Below, one piece after another: positions 1 through 17,266 of a stretch of DNA of 64,000 nucleotides. Position 1 is the first letter of the stretch, and each line of letters starts with the position of its first letter. This DNA comes from a bacterium (GTDB taxonomy: Bacteria > UBA4055). The notes beneath the pieces are model-generated. The model did not search any database. It was not told the DNA's origin and was given only the letters and a program-made list of their open reading frames with translations. The stretch is from positions 74,756 through 138,755 of the forward strand of contig JAKQBN010000030.1 of the NCBI GenBank assembly GCA_029559475.1, in the 5' to 3' direction. A program made the translations under genes and the position numbers.

Positions 1-231
1 GATGAGCTCAAGCGCAAGATTGATCCTTATGTGATCCGATCCCGTTTCGCTGTAGGCTTTATCGAAATATTTCTTTACGCTTGCCGTATTTGCAGCCTGA
101 CTGCTGAGTATACCCCACAGATAATCGGACACCACAGGCCTGTTGTAATTGAAATAACTTTTTTTCGTCACGGCAAACGATGATGAAGCTATCAGGGCTA
201 AAATAAATGCCAGCAATGTTCTTTTATTCAT
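1..231 (-). CDS. TPR-like exported protein, N-terminal part (cut by window edge)
   Basis: The frame is open from the ATG at 231 to the left edge, giving 77 residues. The first 20 form a typical signal peptide (MNKRTLLAFILALIASSSFA). The mature part has alternating Ala/Leu/Tyr positions like a tetratricopeptide repeat (YLWGILSSQAANTASVKKYF), so a TPR scaffold in the periplasm is likely but unproven. The start overlaps the stop of the upstream lipoprotein gene by 8 bases, so the two are probably translationally coupled in the polA-cyclase-lipoprotein run. Confidence 0.7.
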   Translation of the reverse strand, partial: MNKRTLLAFILALIASSSFAVTKKSYFNYNRPVVSDYLWGILSSQAANTASVKKYFDKAYSETGSDHIRINLALELI

Positions 232-853
232 TTTTATCATATACCGATATCATTACACTGTTACCTTCGACAACCACTGAGGACGATTTAAAATCCTCTC
301 TGAATCGTACCGTAATCTGTACCGATTCTTTGTATTCGATGAACTTGATCTTTGTCACATGTGCTTTATTATAAATATATTTTTTTACCGAAGGGCTGAA
401 TTTACCTTTATAAAAAGTTATATTGAAAAAATTATCCCCCGAAAAAAATGTCGTAATGTTGTTCTTAGGATTGTCGCCTTTAAAATTCAACAGCATGAGA
501 ATACCGTTGGTTTTCTCGGAAATCTCTAAACCCGAAACGGTATAGGCAGCCTTATCCGGAGCTACAAAGCTTACTTGATCTTCTGTAATATCAGGTTCGT
601 CTTTTAGCTCATCTGACGCGGATTCTTTTTTCATATCGGTTATTGGCCGGGGAGCTGCAGAAGTTTTTTCGGGAATAACCTCTTTTTTTTCAACGGGATA
701 TTCTACTTTCACCTGTTCTTTTTTAGCGGGTTCTTTTTCCCGCCCGGTTATTTCCTGTTTATTATCTGGATGATCACCAACTGCCGGTTTTAAAGCCGAG
801 CACGCTGTAAAGATCAAAAATCCCGCTGCAATTATCATCGCTATGTACTTCAA
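224..853 (-). CDS. Lipoprotein with C-terminal AMIN-like domain
   Basis: 209 residues. The N-terminus has a hydrophobic stretch ending in a lipobox (FTAC, Cys 18), so this is probably a lipid-anchored envelope protein. Residues 30-95 are a charged Lys/Glu/Pro-rich linker. Residues 105-209 are beta-rich (FFNITFYKGKF, VQITVRFRE, SVMISVYD) and resemble AMIN domains, which bind peptidoglycan or secretin partners. The start is TTG at 853, preceded by a GGCGGA ribosome site. It lies 56 bases after the cyclase gene and overlaps the next gene, suggesting one operon. The AMIN assignment is by pattern only. Confidence 0.7.
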   Translation of the reverse strand: MKYIAMIIAAGFLIFTACSALKPAVGDHPDNKQEITGREKEPAKKEQVKVEYPVEKKEVIPEKTSAAPRPITDMKKESASDELKDEPDITEDQVSFVAPDKAAYTVSGLEISEKTNGILMLLNFKGDNPKNNITTFFSGDNFFNITFYKGKFSPSVKKYIYNKAHVTKIKFIEYKESVQITVRFREDFKSSSVVVEGNSVMISVYDKNE

Positions 854-909: not shown

Positions 910-3900
910 TTACTTTTCCGCTTTATTTTCTTCAATGCTTTTTAAAAGATCATTAACAGAATCGAGACCATGTTTATATCCGATCTTCTCGAAGACCTTT
1001 TTAGCCTTTACAGCATATTCTTCAGCCTTAAAATCATCCTTAAAATTGTCGAAATATGTATATGCTAAATTGTAAAGGGCTTTACCTTCAGAATGAATGT
1101 CATTATGCTTTTTTGAATATTCAATCTGGAGTTTATAATATTTGAGGCTTTCAGCAAGTTTGCCGGTCTCCGCGTAGCAGTTAGCCAGATTACCGTAGCT
1201 GTGGCCTACCATTTCTATGTTGCTTATCTCTTCTGAGAATTTTAGATTCGCTTTATATATCTGAATCGCTTTGCCGTATTCTTTTTTATAAAAATACGCA
1301 TCTCCTCTGTTGTCATTAACGATAGCCAATTTCAGTTTATTTCCTGTTTTATTCAAGATAACTTCTCTCTGATCGCAAAGTTTTATCACTTCATCATATT
1401 TCTTTTTTTCAAGCCTTATGTTTGATAGAGACTGCAAAAGGCTTTCTTTAAGCTCTATTTTCGATGTCCTTTCCACGAGCTTTATTCCTTCCATAATGTG
1501 TTTCTCGGCTTTTCTGAAATCTCCTTTAACATAACTGACCTTTGAAAGCCCGTCTATCGCCCTCATGACAATATTATAATTATGTATCTTCTTTGCTTCA
1601 ATAAATACTTTCTCATAATATGATTCCGCTTTCATCATATCTCCGGTCTGCCCATAAGACGAAGCAATGTTCTGTAAAGCAGTGAGTTTTTCATTGATCA
1701 GGCTGAATTCTTCTGATATCCTTATCATATCTTCGTATATTTTAACCGCTGATTTGAATTCTCTTTGTTTGAAGAATTTCATAGCGAATACGCTAAGAGC
1801 CCAGACTTTTAACCTGATATCTTTCGTTTTATCTGAAAGGTACTCCAACCTCAGAAGCATTTTTAAAAGTTTGTTACTGTCTCCCAGGTAAAAGTATGAA
1901 GTCGCTGCATCAATAAGTCCTTCCAATTCTATGTCGTCTGTTGCGAACGAAGTCATTTTTTCAAATTCAGCAGCTGCATTTTTATAATCCGAAGCCCTTT
2001 TTAGAATATTTACCTTTTTAACCTGTGCTTTCTGATATAATTCACTGCCCTGTTCGGAATTTTCCATAATTTTCTCTGTAATAGCTATTACTTCGCTTCT
2101 CTTTTCCATCATTTTCAGCAATTCGATATCAATAAAATAGCTTTCAAGTTTATCTTTAGTACTCATCTTATATTTTCTGAAAAGCTTAAGGTAATTGAAT
2201 GCCTCTTTGTAACTGAATTTGTTTTTCGCTGATTCAGCTGATTTCAGAAGATAGAATTTTGCCTTGTCCTTGTCGAGAGTATTCCTGTAATGAAAAGCAA
2301 GCAGTTCGTAAGCGGCCGCCAGATTGTCTTTATGATTTTTTTCGTAAAGCTGAGCTATTCTCAGATGGTATTTTCTCCTAAGCGAGAATAAAAGCGTCTC
2401 GTAAGCGACTTCCTGAGTTATGGCGTGCTTGAAAAGATATTCGTTATCTGCAGATTCTTCGAATATCGTAAGATCGACCTTTGTAAGATCGAACAGGCTG
2501 TCTTTTATATCGAGCCTTTCAGATATTTCTTTAAGATTCTGAAGTTGCTTAAGAATGTCGAACTGAAAGATTCGGCCTATTACGGAGGCTATTTTCAGAA
2601 TTGTTTTGCTGTTCTCATCAAGCTTATCTATCCTGGAAAGAACGATGTCGTTCACATTATCCGGTATCTTTATCGATCTGATCGAAGGCTTGATCCTGTA
2701 TTTTGTTCCGACCTGATCTGATATTACTGGAACAAGATCACCGTCGTTCTTCAGACCCAGAAGTATTTCCTCCATAAAAAACGGATTACCCTTCGTTTTC
2801 TGATGAATATCTTTATATATCCTGTCAGGAATGTTAATAAGACTGAATTTATTTAAAAGAAATTCCCTGCCTTCTTCATATTCGAGATTATTGAGCTCGA
2901 TATTATAAGATTTCTTATTTTCTTCAAACCTGCACATTATGGTGTCAGGCCTGAAAACAAAATTAATACATCCGGAGTTAGATCCCGGATCATAAATATT
3001 CAGAAGATCATGGAAAAAATCCGATGAAGATGAATCTATCCAATGAGAATCCTCAAGATATAAAACAGCTTTATCTTCAGAAATTATCTTATTGAATATA
3101 GATAGTGCTATTCCTGTAAATAAATCTTTTAATCCCGGATCAGGATCATCTGAACTACTTTCCTTCCACGATAAGAATGAGGAATACAGATCTGTGTTCT
3201 CCTCTTCTCCAATAGATTTCATCAGTGATCTCAACTTCTTTAACTTAAGATTCAGCGGATCCAGAATATTTACTCCGGCGAATTCAGCTATAAATTCTTT
3301 AACCGCAAAGAAAGGATTGTTTTTCGTATATGAAAGGCAGCCGACAAGATAACACCGGGAACTTTTCTCCCTTTCTTCAATAAGCCTGCTAACAAGAACT
3401 GATTTTCCCAGTCCCGCTTCGGCTTTAATGTTTATCAGAACAGCTTTTCTTTTTTTTACAGCTTCCCAATACATTTCCTGCTCTTTTTTCCTTCCGATCA
3501 GCTTTATTTTTTTATGCTTTTCTGTTTCTGTGAACGTATTGAAATCATACGCAGAAAAAAGTTCAGCTACGCCTTTCAGATTTAATTGTCTCTCAGGACC
3601 GGTATTTATTCCGGAGATCCTCTCTTTGATCTTTGATGAAATGATCACTTCATTTATTCGGGCTGAAGCCATCAGTCTTGCGCTGATGTTAACTGTATTT
3701 CCTATAACGGTAAATTCTCTTCTGTCTGAAGCTCCTACAACTCCGAAATAAATATTACCGTTGTTTATGCCCGCTTTTAAATCTATGCCTGAAGGTTTAT
3801 TAAGCTTGATCTCCTGAATAGCTCTCAAAGCGTATTCTTCATTCTTCTCTGTAGCTACCGGAGCGCCAAAGAGAGCTATAATTTTATTCCCCTTATCGCC

Positions 3901-4761
3901 CATATCGATCTTATTTATAAAGCCCTGATATTTTTTTACTGTCGATGATGTTAAAGAATAGAACTCATTGAGAAGTCCGTAATTAAAATCGCTGTCATAT
4001 TCTACTCCCGTAAAGTTCATAAAAATCACAGCGCAGTTCCTAAGTTCCCCTTTTTCCAATGCGCCCGCATCTTCCCTGACTATCAGTTCATCGTCTATAA
4101 AAGATTTATACCATTCGTACTCTTTCTTATCTGATCTTTTCAGGATAGTTCTGTTTGATTTCTTCCCTTTTGAAAACTCTTCAATATCAAGTTCGTAAAA
4201 ACTGTCTCTTTTTTTACATTTTCCGGCAGCTTTTTTCATACCTCCCGCAATTATTATTTCACCCTGAACCGCGTGATGTTCGCATTCACAGGCTGTATCG
4301 AGAGTATCTCCGGCAATGAAATACTGTTTATTTTCATTTCCGAGCATTCCTATAATTGATTCACCGTAAGCGATCCCGATCTTCATTTTAATAGAACAGT
4401 CACCTGCTATGGTTTTTATTTTATAAAATCTCCTTACTGCAGCCTGCATATCGACAGCTGTTAGAACTACGTCCTCCTTATTTATCTGCTCAGGGAAAAA
4501 TACTGTTATCGCGTCACCACCGAATTTATATACTGACCCGCCTCCGAGAGTAACTATACCGATCAGATCCTCGAATACTTCATTCAATATTCTCGATATT
4601 TCTTCAGATCCTTCTTTTCCTTTTGCTGTCAGCTTTTCCGACAGCTGCGTGAAACCTGAGAGATCTGCGAACATTACAGAACCTTCTATACGTAAATAGC
4701 CGTTCTTTTTAATTTCTTCGTAAACATCGGCGAAATGTTTAGGTACATATTTTGACAACAT
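910..4761 (-). CDS. Two-domain class III adenylate/guanylate cyclase with ATPase and TPR region
   Basis: About 1283 residues from the ATG at 4761, which has AGGA 7 bases upstream; an upstream ATG at 4788 has no ribosome site and sits on the -10 box. Order: cyclase domain C1 (about 25-190), C2 (about 242-400), an AAA/STAND-type ATPase (P-loop AEAGLGKS at 447-454, Walker B LYLED at 567-571), then TPRs from about 790 to the end. C1 has both metal aspartates (D33 in FADLSG, D83 in KFGGD). C2 has lost them (FMNFTG, KGNKI) but has the transition-state pair N358/R362 (VNISAR) and K290 in DKG. The two domains therefore probably make one active site, as in animal soluble adenylyl cyclase. No signal peptide or membrane span is seen, so it is probably cytosolic. 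ATP or GTP preference cannot be settled here. Confidence 0.88.
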   Translation of the reverse strand: MLSKYVPKHFADVYEEIKKNGYLRIEGSVMFADLSGFTQLSEKLTAKGKEGSEEISRILNEVFEDLIGIVTLGGGSVYKFGGDAITVFFPEQINKEDVVLTAVDMQAAVRRFYKIKTIAGDCSIKMKIGIAYGESIIGMLGNENKQYFIAGDTLDTACECEHHAVQGEIIIAGGMKKAAGKCKKRDSFYELDIEEFSKGKKSNRTILKRSDKKEYEWYKSFIDDELIVREDAGALEKGELRNCAVIFMNFTGVEYDSDFNYGLLNEFYSLTSSTVKKYQGFINKIDMGDKGNKIIALFGAPVATEKNEEYALRAIQEIKLNKPSGIDLKAGINNGNIYFGVVGASDRREFTVIGNTVNISARLMASARINEVIISSKIKERISGINTGPERQLNLKGVAELFSAYDFNTFTETEKHKKIKLIGRKKEQEMYWEAVKKRKAVLINIKAEAGLGKSVLVSRLIEEREKSSRCYLVGCLSYTKNNPFFAVKEFIAEFAGVNILDPLNLKLKKLRSLMKSIGEEENTDLYSSFLSWKESSSDDPDPGLKDLFTGIALSIFNKIISEDKAVLYLEDSHWIDSSSSDFFHDLLNIYDPGSNSGCINFVFRPDTIMCRFEENKKSYNIELNNLEYEEGREFLLNKFSLINIPDRIYKDIHQKTKGNPFFMEEILLGLKNDGDLVPVISDQVGTKYRIKPSIRSIKIPDNVNDIVLSRIDKLDENSKTILKIASVIGRIFQFDILKQLQNLKEISERLDIKDSLFDLTKVDLTIFEESADNEYLFKHAITQEVAYETLLFSLRRKYHLRIAQLYEKNHKDNLAAAYELLAFHYRNTLDKDKAKFYLLKSAESAKNKFSYKEAFNYLKLFRKYKMSTKDKLESYFIDIELLKMMEKRSEVIAITEKIMENSEQGSELYQKAQVKKVNILKRASDYKNAAAEFEKMTSFATDDIELEGLIDAATSYFYLGDSNKLLKMLLRLEYLSDKTKDIRLKVWALSVFAMKFFKQREFKSAVKIYEDMIRISEEFSLINEKLTALQNIASSYGQTGDMMKAESYYEKVFIEAKKIHNYNIVMRAIDGLSKVSYVKGDFRKAEKHIMEGIKLVERTSKIELKESLLQSLSNIRLEKKKYDEVIKLCDQREVILNKTGNKLKLAIVNDNRGDAYFYKKEYGKAIQIYKANLKFSEEISNIEMVGHSYGNLANCYAETGKLAESLKYYKLQIEYSKKHNDIHSEGKALYNLAYTYFDNFKDDFKAEEYAVKAKKVFEKIGYKHGLDSVNDLLKSIEENKAEK

Positions 4762-4789
4762 AGTCCGATCCTGTTTTTGTTTATTCATG

Positions 4790-4982: not shown

Positions 4983-7676
4983 TCAGTGCGCATCAAGCCA
5001 GTTATCGCCTATCCCGATATTAACTTCGAGCGGAACCGACAACTCGACCGCATTTTCCATTTCGTTCCTAATGAATGCTGAAAATTTATCAACGATGTCT
5101 TCTCTTACTTCAAAAACCAATTCGTCATGTATCTGAAGCAGCATTTTTGCTTCGTAGCCGTCCATCTTTGAATCTATCCTGATCATAGCCATCTTTATAA
5201 TATCAGCCGACGCTCCCTGAATAGGCGCGTTGACCGCCGCTCTGACCGCAGCACTCTTAATGTTTTTGTTGGACGATCTGATCTCGGGGATCTCCCTTTT
5301 TCTGCCGAACATGGTTTTGACATAGCCGTACTGCTCTATGAAAAGTGTTGTATCGTCAATATATTCTTTGATCTTGCTGAACTGTGAAAAATACAGGTCA
5401 ATGAAATCTGATGCTTCCTGAAAGCTGATCCCCATGTCTTCGCTAAGCCCGAATTTCGTTTTTCCGTAAAGAACCGCAAAATTCGTGGTTTTTGCTCTTG
5501 ATCTCATTTCTTTTGTAACTTCATCAATGCTGACACCGTATAATTTCGATGCGGTAGCCTTATGAATATCAACACCCTGCCTGAAAGCTTCGGTAAGATT
5601 TTCATCTCTGCACAGATGCGCAAGAATTCTCAATTCTATCTGGGAATAATCCGCAGAAATAATTTTATATCCGGGTTTCGGAATAAAAGCTGTCCTGATC
5701 TTTTCCCCGACCTCATTCTTGATAGGAATACTCTGAAGGTTCGGATTCGCCGATGAAAGCCTGCCTGTTGTGGCTATATGCTGCAAAAACGTCGTATGTA
5801 TCCTTCCGGTCGGCTTGTAAACATACTTTAAAAGTCCTGCGGCATAAGTGTTGTTCAGCTTTGACAACTCCCGGTACTTCAAAAGATAATCAGCTATCGG
5901 CATTCCCTCATACGCGAGCTTTTTTAATACGGCGTGATCAGTTGAAAATGTCCCGCTTGTGCCCTTTCTCCCGCTTTTCATGTTCAGCTTCTCGAACAGT
6001 ACCTGGCTGAGCTGCTTTGGAGAATCAAGATTGAACTCTTCTCCCGCAAGCATATAAATAGTCTTTTCAAGTTCCTTTGCCGCCGAAGCCATCTCTTTTG
6101 AAATATTTTCAAGAACCGGCTTTTCGATCCTGATGCCGTACCTTTCCATGATGAAAAGAACTCTTAAAAGCGGTATTTCCATATCGTAAAATATTTTTTC
6201 GATCTCTTCATCCGAGTGTATATCTTCTTTGATCTTAAATGAACTTCTGAAAATAAGCTCTGATTTCTCGCATTCAGTTATCTTTTTTTCAAAGCCAGTT
6301 TCTTTTTCTTCTATCGCAAAATGATTAAGGTAATTTCTTGCTATCCCTGAAAGGTCATGGTTATTAACGCCGCTCCTGACCAGAAAATCTCCAAGAAGAA
6401 TATCGAATAAAGCGCATTTAACTTCAAATCCGTAATTTTTCAAAGCGTGAAGGACTCTTTTCAGGTCATAGCCTATCAGAGTGATATCGCTGTCGTCGAG
6501 TATTTCCTTAAAATCCGTGAGAAAGTCACCTATAGAATCTTTATCTTCCGAATCAAAAAGGCTCATCTGTTCATTTGCCTCTTTGAAATCTTTGCTGACA
6601 AAATAAGATTCATACTCTTTTAAAGAAATTGAAATGCTTTTAATTTTTAATTCGAGAAGATAATCTCCTTCAATATCCAGCCTCATTGAAAACTTTGCCG
6701 ATTTTTTTATCCTCTTTATTAGCTGATCTACATCCTTTTTTTCCGCGATCGTATGGAAATCATATTTGCTGTGGTCATATCTGTCAGCCTTGGTGCGCTC
6801 TGTCTGAACTCCCTGCTTTTTTTCAAGATATTCGAGAAGACGCTTCATATTGAGCTTATAAAAATAATCTGCCAGTTTCTCAAAATCGTAGCTTTTGATG
6901 TGAAGTTTTTCCTCGTCAAGTTCGACTTCGAGATCTGTTTTTAAGGCTACCAGCTCCGCTGAAAGTTTGATAATATCTTTACTGTTAAGAAGTGATTCTC
7001 TTACGGCATTCCCGCCCACTTTATCAATATTTTCGAAAATTCCTTCAATAGTTCCGTGTTCCTGAAGCAGCTTTATCGCAGTTTTCCTTCCGACTTTAGG
7101 CACTCCCGGAATATTGTCTGATGTATCTCCGGTAAGAGTGAGAAAATCTTTTATCTGTTCGGGATAAAGCTCGAACTTCTGCTTAACCCCTTCCCTGTCG
7201 TATATGGTCTGATCCTTTGGGTCGTAAACGAAAACCTTATCGTTCACAAGCTGGGCAAGATCTTTGTCGGATGAAAAAATATAAACCGTGTATCCTAAAT
7301 CAGGCGCGATTTTGCTTATAGCTCCAATAAGGTCATCAGCTTCGAAACCTTCTCTAGAGATGGTCTGGATCCCTGTGGCTTCGATCATTTCGTACAGAAG
7401 CGGGATCTGATTCCTCAGCTCCTCCGGCATTTTCTCGCGGGTAGCTTTATATTCTGGATATAGATCGTGTCTGAATGTGGGGGCGGCAGTGTCAAGAACG
7501 ATCGCCATATACTCCGGAGCTTCATTCTCGATCAGGTTGAAGAATGATGAGAAGAATCCGTATAACGCGGATACATTAAAGCCTTCCTTAGTTATCAGCG
7601 GCTTTGCTCCAAATGCAAAAAACGCCCTGTATATCAGGCCGTAGCCGTCTATAAGATATAATTTTTTCTCATTCAA
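4983..7676 (-). CDS. polA: DNA polymerase I, proofreading-defective type
   Basis: 897 residues, in the normal family range. Residues 1-290 are the 5' nuclease domain (LIDGYGLIYRAFFA; FEADDLIGA; GDTSDNIPGVP). The polymerase domain has motif A (SADYSQIELRILAH), motif B (KTTNFAVLYG, Phe at the ddNTP-discrimination position) and motif C (IHDELVFE). The middle domain, about 305-480, keeps the size of a 3'-5' exonuclease, but its DxE, NxxxD and YxxxD motifs are gone (FSMRLDIEG and GYDLKRV stand where they should be), so it should not proofread. It fills gaps in replication and excision repair. The start is TTG at 7676, and the gene has its own promoter at 7705-7733. Confidence 0.97.
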   Translation of the reverse strand: MNEKKLYLIDGYGLIYRAFFAFGAKPLITKEGFNVSALYGFFSSFFNLIENEAPEYMAIVLDTAAPTFRHDLYPEYKATREKMPEELRNQIPLLYEMIEATGIQTISREGFEADDLIGAISKIAPDLGYTVYIFSSDKDLAQLVNDKVFVYDPKDQTIYDREGVKQKFELYPEQIKDFLTLTGDTSDNIPGVPKVGRKTAIKLLQEHGTIEGIFENIDKVGGNAVRESLLNSKDIIKLSAELVALKTDLEVELDEEKLHIKSYDFEKLADYFYKLNMKRLLEYLEKKQGVQTERTKADRYDHSKYDFHTIAEKKDVDQLIKRIKKSAKFSMRLDIEGDYLLELKIKSISISLKEYESYFVSKDFKEANEQMSLFDSEDKDSIGDFLTDFKEILDDSDITLIGYDLKRVLHALKNYGFEVKCALFDILLGDFLVRSGVNNHDLSGIARNYLNHFAIEEKETGFEKKITECEKSELIFRSSFKIKEDIHSDEEIEKIFYDMEIPLLRVLFIMERYGIRIEKPVLENISKEMASAAKELEKTIYMLAGEEFNLDSPKQLSQVLFEKLNMKSGRKGTSGTFSTDHAVLKKLAYEGMPIADYLLKYRELSKLNNTYAAGLLKYVYKPTGRIHTTFLQHIATTGRLSSANPNLQSIPIKNEVGEKIRTAFIPKPGYKIISADYSQIELRILAHLCRDENLTEAFRQGVDIHKATASKLYGVSIDEVTKEMRSRAKTTNFAVLYGKTKFGLSEDMGISFQEASDFIDLYFSQFSKIKEYIDDTTLFIEQYGYVKTMFGRKREIPEIRSSNKNIKSAAVRAAVNAPIQGASADIIKMAMIRIDSKMDGYEAKMLLQIHDELVFEVREDIVDKFSAFIRNEMENAVELSVPLEVNIGIGDNWLDAH

Positions 7677-7746: not shown

Positions 7747-9213
7747 TTATTTAATGCTTCTGACCATTCTGAAGCCTATATAAAAATATTTGTCATTGGG
7801 ATTGTAAAGATTTCTGCAGCATACTCTTGCGCATTTTTCGTAATTGAACCAGCTTCCTCCTCTTATCACTCGAAGAAAACCTTTTACCGGACCTGTAGGA
7901 TTGGATAAATTCTTTATATCATCCGGATAAACATCATACCAGTCCCAGCACCACTCGCTGACGTTACCTGTCATATCGTATAATCCAAGTTCATTAGCCT
8001 TCATTCTGCTTCCAACTGAACATGTTGATTCTTTTGCGGTTTTCGTATAGACAGCCACTTCTTGTATCCTGTCGCTTCCGCTGTATAAATATTTATGGGA
8101 TTTCTTTCCTCCTCCGGACGCATATTCCCATTCTGCTTCGGTAGGAAGCCTGTAGCCGTTCGCTTTAAAATCGCAGACAATATCGCTGCCGGTACCTGTA
8201 TAACATTTCTGCAATCCCTCCGTCTCGCTCATTTTGTTGCAGAATTTTACTGCGTCGTACCAGCTTACGTTCTCTACGGGAAGACTGTCACCTGTAAATT
8301 CCGAAACGCTTTTTCCCATTATATAATTCCATTCGGCCTGAGTTGTCTCATATTTACTGATATAAAAACTGCTGACGGACACTTTATGAATTGGAAGTTC
8401 ATCAGTGCAGCCCTGACTTCCACCCATTTCAAAAGAACCTCCTTCGACAAGAACGTATTCGCCTCCAATATCCGGTCCCGGTTTCAATTTCACGTTTCTT
8501 TTTACAGCTGTTCCCTGTTCTATTATGAACTCTTCACTGTAACTTTTATGGCCTTTCTTTTTTATTTTGAGCTTATAAACTCCGGCCGGCAGATTGGAAA
8601 AAGTCCTGTTACCGTAACATGAGTATTTATTGAACCCTTCCTCCCACAACTCCGTGAAACAGCTGTCAGGCGAAGTCGTGATCTGAACTGACCCGACGGG
8701 ATAATCAGGATACATCATTATCGTTTTATCTTCTTTATCAGACAGACTGACGGTCTTTTCTAAGGTCTTTGTGCTGTCCATTTCCACTTTCAACCTGTAT
8801 TCACCCGGCTGAAGTTTAATTCTTTCATATTCTTTTGTAAACTCTCCGTTGATAAATACTTTCACCTTCTTAAATGTGTTGATAGTAAGCGTCGCCCGAA
8901 CATCTGCGAAAACATATTTCTTTCGTGTTTCAGGCGCTTTAACAACCAAAGTTTCTTCAATTTCTGGAAAACCTTTGATCGAAAGCGATACTTTATGCCT
9001 GCCCGCAGGATATTCGAATTCTACAGGAGTTATTCCTATCTCTTCATCAGCTATATAAACTTCCGCGCCTTCAGGTTCAGAAATGATAATGACTTTGGCT
9101 ATCTGAACAGTAAATACCGGCTTTTTCATTTGATCCTGAGATGTATTTAACGAATCCTGCGCGGACATTGTCAAAAACATTCCCGATATTAAAAACGGCA
9201 ACAATAATCTCAT
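7747..9213 (-). CDS. Exported PEGA and FGE-sulfatase-fold protein (member 1)
   Basis: 488 residues with signal peptide 1-18 (ends FLTMSAQ). Residues 40-245 hold PEGA-type beta units (PEGAEVYIADEEIG; ATLTINTFKKVKVFING; a third SPDSCFTELWEEG unit). Residues 255-488 are a formylglycine-generating-enzyme/SUMF1 fold with hallmarks GGSFEMGG, NGYRLPTEAEWEYA, GLYDMTGNVSEWCW and GFRMVR. It alone among the six relatives here has a Cys cluster (CARVCC) near where true FGE has its catalytic pair, so its activity is open. PEGA units usually bind surface or wall components. It is separated from the other five by the ruvX operon, and is probably periplasmic or at the surface. Confidence 0.88.
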   Translation of the reverse strand: MRLLLPFLISGMFLTMSAQDSLNTSQDQMKKPVFTVQIAKVIIISEPEGAEVYIADEEIGITPVEFEYPAGRHKVSLSIKGFPEIEETLVVKAPETRKKYVFADVRATLTINTFKKVKVFINGEFTKEYERIKLQPGEYRLKVEMDSTKTLEKTVSLSDKEDKTIMMYPDYPVGSVQITTSPDSCFTELWEEGFNKYSCYGNRTFSNLPAGVYKLKIKKKGHKSYSEEFIIEQGTAVKRNVKLKPGPDIGGEYVLVEGGSFEMGGSQGCTDELPIHKVSVSSFYISKYETTQAEWNYIMGKSVSEFTGDSLPVENVSWYDAVKFCNKMSETEGLQKCYTGTGSDIVCDFKANGYRLPTEAEWEYASGGGKKSHKYLYSGSDRIQEVAVYTKTAKESTCSVGSRMKANELGLYDMTGNVSEWCWDWYDVYPDDIKNLSNPTGPVKGFLRVIRGGSWFNYEKCARVCCRNLYNPNDKYFYIGFRMVRSIK

Positions 9214-12456: not shown

Positions 12457-13773
12457 TTATCTCCTTACCGATCTTGCTATCCTGAACCCGCCATCACTGT
12501 CGGCAGATTCAGGTCCGGAGTGTGTGCGGGATTTATATCCTAAGTCGCTGAAAACCGGATCACTTTTATAGCTGCTGCCTCTCAGTACCCGGGAATATAC
12601 ATTTGGATCGCTTCCGTCCGCTCCTGTAGGATCGGTCTGATATTCGCTTTTATAATAATAACACCAGTCCCAGCACCATTCATAAACATTGCCGGTCATA
12701 TCGTAAATTCCGAGTACATTCGGTCTTTTTGTTCCTGCGGGATGACTTCTTCCGTCTGAGTTTGAATAATGCCATGCGACTTCATCAATAATATCACTTC
12801 CGCTGTATTTATATCCTAAATAAATTGGTCCTCCGCCGGCAGCATATTCCCATTCAGCTTCGGTCGGCAGTCTGTATCCGTTTGCGGAAAAATCGCATTT
12901 TATATTCTCGCCACTGCCGCTGTAGCATTTTTTTAGACCTTTCTTTTCGCTTAGTTTATTGCAGAACTCTACAGCATCATACCATGTTATGCTGTCAACA
13001 GGGAAATTGAATTCAGACTGTTTGAAACTCCCCTCTCCGGTTACTGAATTATAGATCTCCTTTGTAACTTCGAACATGCCTATGTAGAAATCGCTCAGAG
13101 TCACTTTATGTAACGGTTTTTCTAATTCCTCATTATTGTTTCCCATAATGAAAGTACTGCCTTTTACCAGAACTTCCGAACCGTAATCCCTTTCAAGGTC
13201 CACATTGAACAACGTACTGTCCGTATTGACTTCGATCTTTTTGTTCATTTTATAATAACCCGGCCCTGATACCGACAGTTCATGCGTACCTGTTCTTAAC
13301 TTTATATTTCTTCCGTATCGTATAGGTTTCCCGTCAACCGATATCTCAGAATTTTCAGGCTTTCCTGTAAAATTCACGGACAGTTCTGTGATCTTCATTT
13401 CTTCTCCCGTGCCTCTGATCTCAATACCGTAAACAGTATTAGAATTCAGACTGAAAGGAAATGCGTGTTTTTTTGTATCATAACCTTCTTTTTTGAAAAT
13501 TATATCCCTGCTGTCCTGCTGCATATAAACAAAGTATATACCGTCCCTGTAATCGTGTTTTTCGTATCCCTGACCGTCGAACTGAAGATCTGAGATATCG
13601 CTATAGACCTTCAGGATCGCACACCACTGCCCGAATATATCTTTTTGACCGTATTTTTGTGCCGAAAGGTCACCGGTGATCTGCTCTATATTTTTTGCGA
13701 TCTCGAACTGAGCCCCGAATGATACACCTGCCATTAATAATACAATACTGACTGATAATAGTTTAAAGCTCAT
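12457..13773 (-). CDS. Exported FGE-sulfatase-fold protein (member 2)
   Basis: 438 residues from the ATG at 13773. This start overlaps the upstream stop as ATGA and begins a clean signal peptide (MSFKLLSVSIVLLMAGVSFG); an upstream extension would add a highly charged tail and lose it. The N-terminal domain (QYxxxDIxGQWCAILKVYSDISDLQF) is shared with members 3, 5 and 6. A single PEGA-like unit (PENSEISVDGKPIRYG) follows, then the FGE fold (GSTFIMGN, NGYRLPTEAEWEYA, GIYDMTGNVYEWCW, GGFRIAR). No Cys pair lies near the C-terminus, so sulfatase-activating chemistry is unlikely. The role is unknown. Confidence 0.88.
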   Translation of the reverse strand: MSFKLLSVSIVLLMAGVSFGAQFEIAKNIEQITGDLSAQKYGQKDIFGQWCAILKVYSDISDLQFDGQGYEKHDYRDGIYFVYMQQDSRDIIFKKEGYDTKKHAFPFSLNSNTVYGIEIRGTGEEMKITELSVNFTGKPENSEISVDGKPIRYGRNIKLRTGTHELSVSGPGYYKMNKKIEVNTDSTLFNVDLERDYGSEVLVKGSTFIMGNNNEELEKPLHKVTLSDFYIGMFEVTKEIYNSVTGEGSFKQSEFNFPVDSITWYDAVEFCNKLSEKKGLKKCYSGSGENIKCDFSANGYRLPTEAEWEYAAGGGPIYLGYKYSGSDIIDEVAWHYSNSDGRSHPAGTKRPNVLGIYDMTGNVYEWCWDWCYYYKSEYQTDPTGADGSDPNVYSRVLRGSSYKSDPVFSDLGYKSRTHSGPESADSDGGFRIARSVRR

Positions 13774-15728
13774 TTTATGACGTCCGAAAAATTTCTTGCG
13801 ACTCTGAAACCTTTTATCACGCTTCTGCTCTCGGGACTGCCCGAATATCTGCCGGTGCATTTTAAGTATCCGTCAGTAACATTATCCATCCAGTGACCGC
13901 CCCTCAAAACTCTTGGCGTTATATCCTTTGAATCAGGTCCTTTCTGGTCTGCTGATTCTGCATCTGAATAGTAATCATATCTGTCCCAGCACCATTCTTC
14001 CATATTGCCGCTCATATCATAAATACCGAGCTCATTAGGTTTTTTACCCGCAACCTTCTTTGTTGATTTATCATTATTCCCTGCATACTCTGCAACTTCA
14101 TTAATGTCTTTGCTTCCCGAATATTCAAACCCTTCGCTTTTATTTCCGCCCCTCGCGGCGTATTCCCATTCGGCTTCGGTAGGAAGCCTGTAACCGTCTG
14201 CTTTGAAATTACATATGATATTGTCGCCTGAGCCGCTGTAACACTTTTCCAGCCCTTCTTTCTCACTCAGTTTATTGCAGAATTCTACAGCCTCATACCA
14301 GCTTAACTGATCAACAGGATTATTTTCACCTTTGAATTCGCTCGGATTCTTCCCTGTCAGCTCCTGATATTGAGCCTGGGTAACTTCTGTTTTGCTTATA
14401 TAATAATCATTTAATGTTACATCGTGGGGCGGGCCCTCGTCGCTCCACATATTGCTCCCCATTTGAAATTTACCTCCCTCGACGAAAACAAAATCCTTTC
14501 CTGCGTCATAACCTTCTTCAAGTTTAATTTTCTTATTTATTTTAGCATCTTTCGTGACTATAACATCTTCAGCAGCTGTTTTAAAACCCTTTTTGCTGAC
14601 TTTCAGCCTGTATGTGCCGGCAGGTACATTTGAGAAGGATTTTGACCCTGTGGACGTATATTTTTCTCCTCCTGCCTCAGAAAGTTCGATATTTGCGCCT
14701 TCAGGTATTACTGTTATTTGTACCGTTCCTGTAAAAATCTGAGGGAAAAGATCTATGGTCTTTTTTTCGTTCCTTTTTAGGCTTATTTTTTTTTCAACAG
14801 GCTGAACTTTACTCATTTCAATTTTTACAGAGTGTTCTTTTGGCGGCAATTTTATATTTTTATATTCTGTGATCTGTTGCCCGTTTAGATATACTTTCGC
14901 TTTTTCATGCGTGTTTATTGTCAAAGTTGCTCGTATATCGGCTAATTGGTAAGTTTTTTTCGTCTCCGGCCTTTTGATAATTACTGTTTCCTCTATATCT
15001 TCGTAGCCTTCAGGAGCATCAATCCTGATCCTGTATGTTCCTTCGGGATGATATGCCGGCAATGGAGTTTCGCCGATCCTGATGCTGTCGATATAAACAA
15101 CAGCGCCGGGGGGATTTGAGTTTATCTCGAACTTGGCATTTTGGATTTTTTCAAGTTTATATTCGAACATTGTTTTATCGGTGCTGACTTCAATTATTTT
15201 CTTATAAGTTTCATATCCTTCGCTTATTACTTTCAGTTCATGTTTTCCGACAGTTGTTTTTATGCTTTTTACACTGCCTTTTTCACTTCCGTCAAGAAAT
15301 ATGTTCGAATTTTCAGGCTCACCGATAAGGTTTATGGTAATATCTTCGATCTTTTTTTCTTCCCCGACTCCGGAAACTTCCAGAATATAAACCTTGTTGG
15401 ATGCAAGCTGACGGGGGAACTGGTGTTTGAGAGAAATAAAGTCTGTTTTTATGAACTCGAGCATGCGGCTGCCGGGCTGCATGTAAACATGATAAATTCC
15501 ATTGCCCATGTATTCCGACTTATCTAATGTCATGCTCTTGAAAGCAAGATTTTCAATATCTGTCTTGACCTTTAAGATCGCCACATAGTCGCCGTTATGA
15601 TCCTTATAGCCGTATCTTTGGGCCGTTATACTGCCTGTATCCTCGTAAACATCCTTCACGATCTTGAATTGTGCTGAGAAGGTCAATACTGTTATAAGAA
15701 ATATTAGTATAAGCTTAACTTTTTTCAA
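13770..15728 (-). CDS. Exported PEGA and FGE-sulfatase-fold protein (member 3)
   Basis: 652 residues, the longest of the array. TTG start at 15728 with GGAAG upstream; signal peptide 1-19 (LILIFLITVLTFSAQ). Order: shared N-terminal domain (about 20-125), three or four PEGA units (PENSNIFLDGSEKG, PPGAVVYIDSIRIGETP, ATLTINTHEKAKVYLNG, PEGANIELSEAGGE), then the FGE fold from about 415 (GGKFQMGSN, DGYRLPTEAEWEYAARGG, GFRVAR). It has its own promoter 37 bases or more upstream, so members 3 and 2 can be made apart from the rest. Probably periplasmic; function unknown. Confidence 0.88.
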   Translation of the reverse strand: MKKVKLILIFLITVLTFSAQFKIVKDVYEDTGSITAQRYGYKDHNGDYVAILKVKTDIENLAFKSMTLDKSEYMGNGIYHVYMQPGSRMLEFIKTDFISLKHQFPRQLASNKVYILEVSGVGEEKKIEDITINLIGEPENSNIFLDGSEKGSVKSIKTTVGKHELKVISEGYETYKKIIEVSTDKTMFEYKLEKIQNAKFEINSNPPGAVVYIDSIRIGETPLPAYHPEGTYRIRIDAPEGYEDIEETVIIKRPETKKTYQLADIRATLTINTHEKAKVYLNGQQITEYKNIKLPPKEHSVKIEMSKVQPVEKKISLKRNEKKTIDLFPQIFTGTVQITVIPEGANIELSEAGGEKYTSTGSKSFSNVPAGTYRLKVSKKGFKTAAEDVIVTKDAKINKKIKLEEGYDAGKDFVFVEGGKFQMGSNMWSDEGPPHDVTLNDYYISKTEVTQAQYQELTGKNPSEFKGENNPVDQLSWYEAVEFCNKLSEKEGLEKCYSGSGDNIICNFKADGYRLPTEAEWEYAARGGNKSEGFEYSGSKDINEVAEYAGNNDKSTKKVAGKKPNELGIYDMSGNMEEWCWDRYDYYSDAESADQKGPDSKDITPRVLRGGHWMDNVTDGYLKCTGRYSGSPESRSVIKGFRVARNFSDVIK

Positions 15729-15847: not shown

Positions 15848-17227
<1,380 letters not shown>

Positions 17228-17266
17228 AAACATCTGTCCATATAAATTAGAACTTGCGAAACGGAA

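Follow-up and report, generated by a model that had tools for sequence, protein, structure and literature searches.

A bacterial soluble adenylyl cyclase-type protein combining a tandem cyclase pair with a STAND-TPR half

The protein encoded at positions 910 to 4761 (minus strand; 1,283 amino acids) of the 64,000-nucleotide stretch of DNA from an uncultured bacterium analyzed here (the window) belongs to the soluble adenylyl cyclase (sAC)/ADCY10 family. Its likeness to sAC is real, with chance excluded by the E-values of its matches, by tandem relatives (E <= 1e-60) encoded in 12 of the 13 genomes examined from this phylum, and by a conserved polA-cyclase gene order. A first-pass annotation had assigned it the layout of animal sAC; that observation is confirmed and the interpretation attached to it is supported, the kinship being borne out by sequence, model, and tree, except that the layout is not distinctively animal and extends to about eight bacterial phyla. 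Very probably, the protein is a sAC-family enzyme in which the two cyclase domains, C1 and C2, form a pseudo-heterodimer with one site, most likely converting ATP to cAMP and switched by its STAND-TPR half.

The first ATG of the open reading frame yields a version of 1,292 amino acids (910 to 4788, minus strand). The ATG at 4761 (MLSKY...) is the start common to orthologues, most of which have a recognizable ribosome-binding site ahead of it, and one orthologue (L048) has no ATG at all upstream of MLSKY; the start at 4761, which is also that of the first-pass annotation, is therefore the better supported. Residue numbers from the alignment, used throughout, count from 4788 and exceed those of the earlier annotation by nine. 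The upstream neighbor is polA (DNA polymerase I; 4983 to 7676, minus strand), and window-type orthologues keep this gene order across several genera. The downstream neighbor, 56 bases past the cyclase and possibly co-transcribed with it, is a small gene (224 to 853, minus strand) whose 209-amino-acid product has a lipoprotein-like N terminus and gave no match in a Pfam search; a gene of this type usually lies directly downstream of the cyclase orthologue across several genera. Elsewhere in the window, four proteins combining PEGA and formylglycine-generating-enzyme-like (FGE-sulfatase) domains are clustered (7747 to 9213, 12457 to 13860, 13770 to 15728, and 15848 to 17233) and represent a local family expansion.

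A single chain holds a pair of class III cyclase domains along with a P-loop ATPase and TPRs, as first annotated from the sequence and now recovered by Pfam, PDB matches, and motifs. Pfam detects two Guanylate_cyc stretches (E 3.6e-23) and TPR_12 (E 2.3e-15), along with an AAA_16 match (E 3.3e-5) that falls under its cut-off. The cyclase domains are N terminal, with C1 spanning residues 31 to 210 (4159 to 4698, minus strand; Pfam, PDB sequence match, model, and alignment) and C2 spanning residues 246 to 419 (3532 to 4053, minus strand; PDB sequence match, model, and alignment), and no membrane segment is visible in the C1-C2 model. They are followed by a STAND-type P-loop NTPase and winged-helix region at about residues 429 to 790 (2419 to 3504, minus strand; Pfam, motifs, model, and Foldseek), with a Walker A motif at residues 456 to 463 (AEAGLGKS) and a Walker B motif at residues 576 to 580 (LYLED). 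A TPR region, presumed to be the sensor part, occupies residues from about 989 to 1261 (1006 to 1824, minus strand), where TPR_12, TPR_MalT, and TPR_10 match and the TPR matches in the PDB are to GPSM2/Pins and kinesin light chain. All NCBIfam matches were subthreshold, and the best of these, a TOMM kinase/cyclase fusion, was rejected, having scored 155 bits where the cut-off is 706.

Among PDB chains, the top match by sequence in both domains is human ADCY10 (E 3.6e-25), followed by the cyclase CyaB of 3r5g (E 8.7e-14). Identity to ADCY10 is low, about 22% over the superposed chain, yet C1 and C2 are matched in order. An AlphaFold2 model of C1-C2 (residues 1 to 434, from a 29-row alignment) reached a pLDDT of 89 and a pTM of 0.88, and in a Foldseek comparison with the PDB its best 24 matches were all human sAC (E 6e-31 to 1e-27; TM 0.75 to 0.79 on the query), with both domains spanned. 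Next came pairs from transmembrane adenylyl cyclases (E 6e-21); matches to single-domain cyclases extend over about half of the model. In this model the pair therefore takes the shared-site arrangement, as a sAC-type pseudo-heterodimer, and the first result that the earlier annotation had named as refuting, a model in which C1 and C2 form no shared site, did not arise.

Phylogeny places each domain with its human counterpart. The domain tree was built from the C1 and C2 domains of 33 tandem proteins, of ADCY10 as the sole eukaryotic sAC, and of the window protein, together with three single domains from the PDB and 42 other cyclase domains that came out of the same pattern scan as the tandems. 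One branch (support, 100/99) has ADCY10 C1 and all tandem C1s on one side, and another (97/91) unites ADCY10 C2 with all tandem C2s, apart from 44 single-domain cyclases; the only apparent single domain inside the C2 group belongs to L080, a protein cut at a contig end. The ADCY10 rows are long branches, and in a concatenated C1+C2 tree the ADCY10 branch reaches a length of 3.8, such that this tree does not settle where it belongs among the bacterial tandems. Two further features, both derived, are common to the tandems and ADCY10. The two C1 aspartates are separated by 50 residues here and by 52 in ADCY10; the figure for single-domain cyclases is 44. A DKG sequence occupies the C2 loop in 28 of 35 C2s and occurs in 2 of 45 single-domain cyclases. 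The second refuting result named in the earlier annotation, two domains unrelated to ADCY10-type pairs, thus did not arise either.

These same features bear on whether the layout could have arisen by convergence, with a pair of ordinary class IIIb domains arising by duplication and joining a STAND-TPR unit independently of sAC. Such fusions appear to be easy, since proteins with one cyclase domain ahead of a STAND-TPR unit also exist (L083 and L106), but each of the two cyclase domains falls with its ADCY10 counterpart, and not with the other or with the single domains, and the C1 insert and C2 DKG loop are held in common. Convergence is thus extremely unlikely and is already contradicted by the present data. 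The identical K-x3-D and N-x3-R spacings, to which the first-pass annotation had pointed, do equal those of ADCY10 but carry no weight as proof of kinship, being near-universal in class III cyclases (43 of 45 and 45 of 45 single-domain cyclases, respectively).

Alignment to ADCY10, read against the list of functional residues of human sAC in Table 1 of PMC12867704, places a single composite site across the two domains (residues given with first-pass number and ADCY10 equivalent). C1, the metal-binding domain, contributes D42 (D33; D47) and D92 (D83; D99) and also holds K88 (K79; K95), K136 (K127; K144), and C167 (C158; R176). C2 contributes K293 (K284; K334), T360 (T351; T405), and the N-x3-R transition-state motif formed by N367 (N358; N412) and R371 (R362; R416) at 3676 to 3690 (minus strand). 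C2 also carries the D298-K299-G300 loop (D289-K290-G291; D339-K340-G341), and the position of its lost metal aspartate is occupied by N258 (N249; N298). The restriction of the metal aspartates to C1 and of the transition-state pair to C2 therefore stands as first annotated. The lysine annotated as K290 is indeed present in the C2 loop, where it corresponds to K340 in the beta2/3 loop (FDKG) of ADCY10, but it is not the base-reading lysine, which is K284: base recognition in human sAC falls to K334 (PMC12867704, Table 1). From the human list, D47, D99, K144, K334, N412, R416, and the DKG loop of C2 are kept, as is T405, and the C1 loop reads GGD in place of the human AGD. D47, D99, T405, N412, and R416 are unchanged in all 34 bacterial tandems, the window protein included.

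Taken together, this alignment and the model show C1 and C2 folding onto each other as a pseudo-heterodimer whose single active site draws two metal-binding aspartates from C1 and the base-reading lysine and threonine and the N-x3-R pair from C2; the second, pseudosymmetric site is without catalytic residues. The pair might instead be a pseudo-enzyme, binding nucleotide without making cAMP and serving as a regulatory or oligomerization module for the STAND-TPR half. The family does tolerate inactive members, as several paralogues have lost catalytic residues: two from the same genus (L030:1501-2742 and L032:1501-2754) lack the first metal aspartate and both the transition-state asparagine and arginine and look like pseudo-cyclases, and a class III cyclase-like ATP-binding protein of Pseudomonas (6yii) is in the PDB match list. 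While these paralogues drift, however, all 12 window-type rows keep the catalytic residues unchanged, the one exception being D298 of the C2 loop in a single row, making loss of activity in the window protein quite improbable. The genome of the window encodes a second tandem-cyclase-TPR protein (L002:1060-4749), in which the metal aspartates and the asparagine-arginine pair are kept and valine replaces the base-reading Lys334; related proteins from Neomarinimicrobiota have histidine at this position.

The lysine and threonine at the base-reading positions make ATP the most likely substrate and cAMP the most likely product. Guanylyl cyclases have a Glu/Cys pattern at these positions, and the residues found here are those of ADCY10, so that an active cyclase yielding cGMP or another cyclic nucleotide is very unlikely. 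Family membership by itself does not settle the substrate because, going by the title of Roelofs et al. 2001 as cited in PMC6660944, the sAC homologue of Dictyostelium is a guanylyl cyclase, and this case is what speaks for a product other than cAMP. A cAMP pathway is plausible, since the genome encodes five cyclic-nucleotide-binding proteins, one of them Crp-like with a helix-turn-helix and one a ZIP transporter, as well as further cyclases. The cAMP produced would presumably act on these binding proteins, including the Crp-type regulator, although the presence of other cyclases makes the link to the enzyme at 910 to 4761 a nonspecific one. The ZIP-family transporter (L037:859-2244) has its cyclic-nucleotide-binding domain inserted in the middle of the protein and is a possible case of a metal transporter gated directly by a cyclic nucleotide.

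Control of the putative cyclase probably lies in its C-terminal half. A model of residues 420 to 910 (pLDDT 86; pTM 0.80) has as its best Foldseek matches the STAND-TPR protein 6mfv, Apaf-1, and the maltose-regulator complex 8bob, with overall TM values of 0.49 to 0.56 that are expected to be modest for multidomain proteins with movable parts. With Walker A and B motifs, a winged helix after the NTPase, and superstructure-forming repeats all present, the ATPase belongs to the STAND class, and a STAND domain is predicted in full-length human sAC as well (PMC12802110). The STAND fold suggests that the ATPase and TPRs would act as a switch, driven by a ligand or partner, that changes how the two cyclase domains are arranged or assembled. 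If other STAND proteins are a guide, a trigger at the TPRs would lead to nucleotide exchange, and this in turn would alter the cyclase.

Bicarbonate, the activator of human sAC, is contacted there by residues that are only partly retained. K88, the equivalent of K95, is present in each of the 12 window-type rows, and the position of Arg176 is taken by C167 (codon 4288 to 4290, minus strand), the cysteine reported in the first-pass annotation as C158. No arginine occurs at this position in the alignment of the 34 bacterial tandems, and, judging from sequence, the human Arg-switch mechanism is not present in the window protein. With this arginine missing from both the window clade and the 33 other bacterial tandems, the human Arg switch looks like a later addition, and the older form of regulation may be control by STAND rather than by bicarbonate. 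Most nonmammalian animal sACs are likewise without K95, R176, or both (PMC12867704).

The earlier suggestion of a possible loss of bicarbonate sensing is reasonable as far as the human Arg switch goes but does not extend to bicarbonate activation as such, which has been shown in bacterial enzymes without the arginine (PMC4506562). The preferred reading might accordingly be refined to an enzyme that is still bicarbonate activated through its K95-equivalent lysine and has no need of Arg176, as in the cyanobacterial cyclases. The conservation of K88 favors this refinement, as does the Anabaena enzyme, in which activation requires the equivalent lysine even though the remaining human contacts have not been retained (PMC4506562). 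That lysine is, however, mostly missing from other bacterial tandems, and the sea urchin sAC, which has the same pairing of a kept lysine with a lost arginine, responds to pH and not to bicarbonate (PMC12867704). On balance, bicarbonate activation of the window protein is possible but doubtful.

The only unfamiliar feature of the protein is a C-[DE]-C-E-H motif, invariant in the clade, whose first cysteine is C167 and which thus sits at the human bicarbonate-switch position. All 12 window-type rows have C167, C169, and C252, the last of which lies where C2 begins (window positions 4282 to 4290 and 4033 to 4035; orthologues in L048 to L054), and these cysteines are missing from most other tandem paralogues. 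Human Arg176 clamps the metal aspartate, and Cys167 occupies the same position. In the Delongbacteria clade, this position could have been rebuilt, with C252 also involved, as a thiol- or metal-responsive switch, such that the enzyme would report redox state or metal rather than bicarbonate; we consider this unlikely.

Prior work had already placed sAC in bacteria. The protein is conserved across metazoans and bacteria (PMC3918592), and bacterial sACs with a P-loop NTPase domain are described in PMC6660944, in a statement that refers to Roelofs & Van Haastert 2002 and to Kobayashi et al. 2004. The layout has thus been known in bacteria since 2002-2004 and is not distinctively animal: a single genome scan returned 33 other tandem proteins of the same layout from about eight named bacterial phyla, and it is seen in Chloroflexota, WOR-3, Cloacimonadota, Neomarinimicrobiota, Atribacterota, Desulfuromonas, and others. 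To these the window protein adds a clade of bacterial sAC-type enzymes that is well conserved and syntenic and has a full active site and K95 but no Arg176 switch. It also provides a bacterial full-length sAC for structural work, the human full-length protein being hard to purify (PMC12802110).

Of the known systems, human ADCY10 (PDB 4clf and others) has in common with the window protein the C1-C2 pair and its single active site, the complete set of catalytic residues, the DKG loop of C2, K95, and a P-loop (STAND) region after C2. It differs in having Arg176 in place of cysteine and Phe338 in place of glycine before the DKG, and the TPRs are clearly recognizable in the window protein. The bacterial sAC-like proteins of Roelofs & Van Haastert 2002 and of Kobayashi, Buck & Levin 2004, as far as they are described in PMC6660944, have the same order of two cyclase domains and then a P-loop NTPase; the window protein is set apart from them by its place in a Delongbacteria clade in which K95 is kept and C167, C169, and C252 are invariant. 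Cyanobacterial class IIIb cyclases (Spirulina platensis CyaC, 1wc0, and Synechocystis Cya2, 2w01) resemble it in fold, in K-x3-D (CyaC), in N-x3-R, and in the threonine at the base position of CyaC. Unlike the window protein, in which no one domain holds both metal aspartates and N-x3-R, they are one-domain homodimers with two sites and no asymmetry, and they are without the C1 insert or C2 DKG loop. STAND-TPR regulators (6mfv and the MalT type) and Apaf-1 share the NTPase and winged-helix module, followed in 6mfv and MalT by TPRs, whereas the output domain of the window protein is a cyclase pair.
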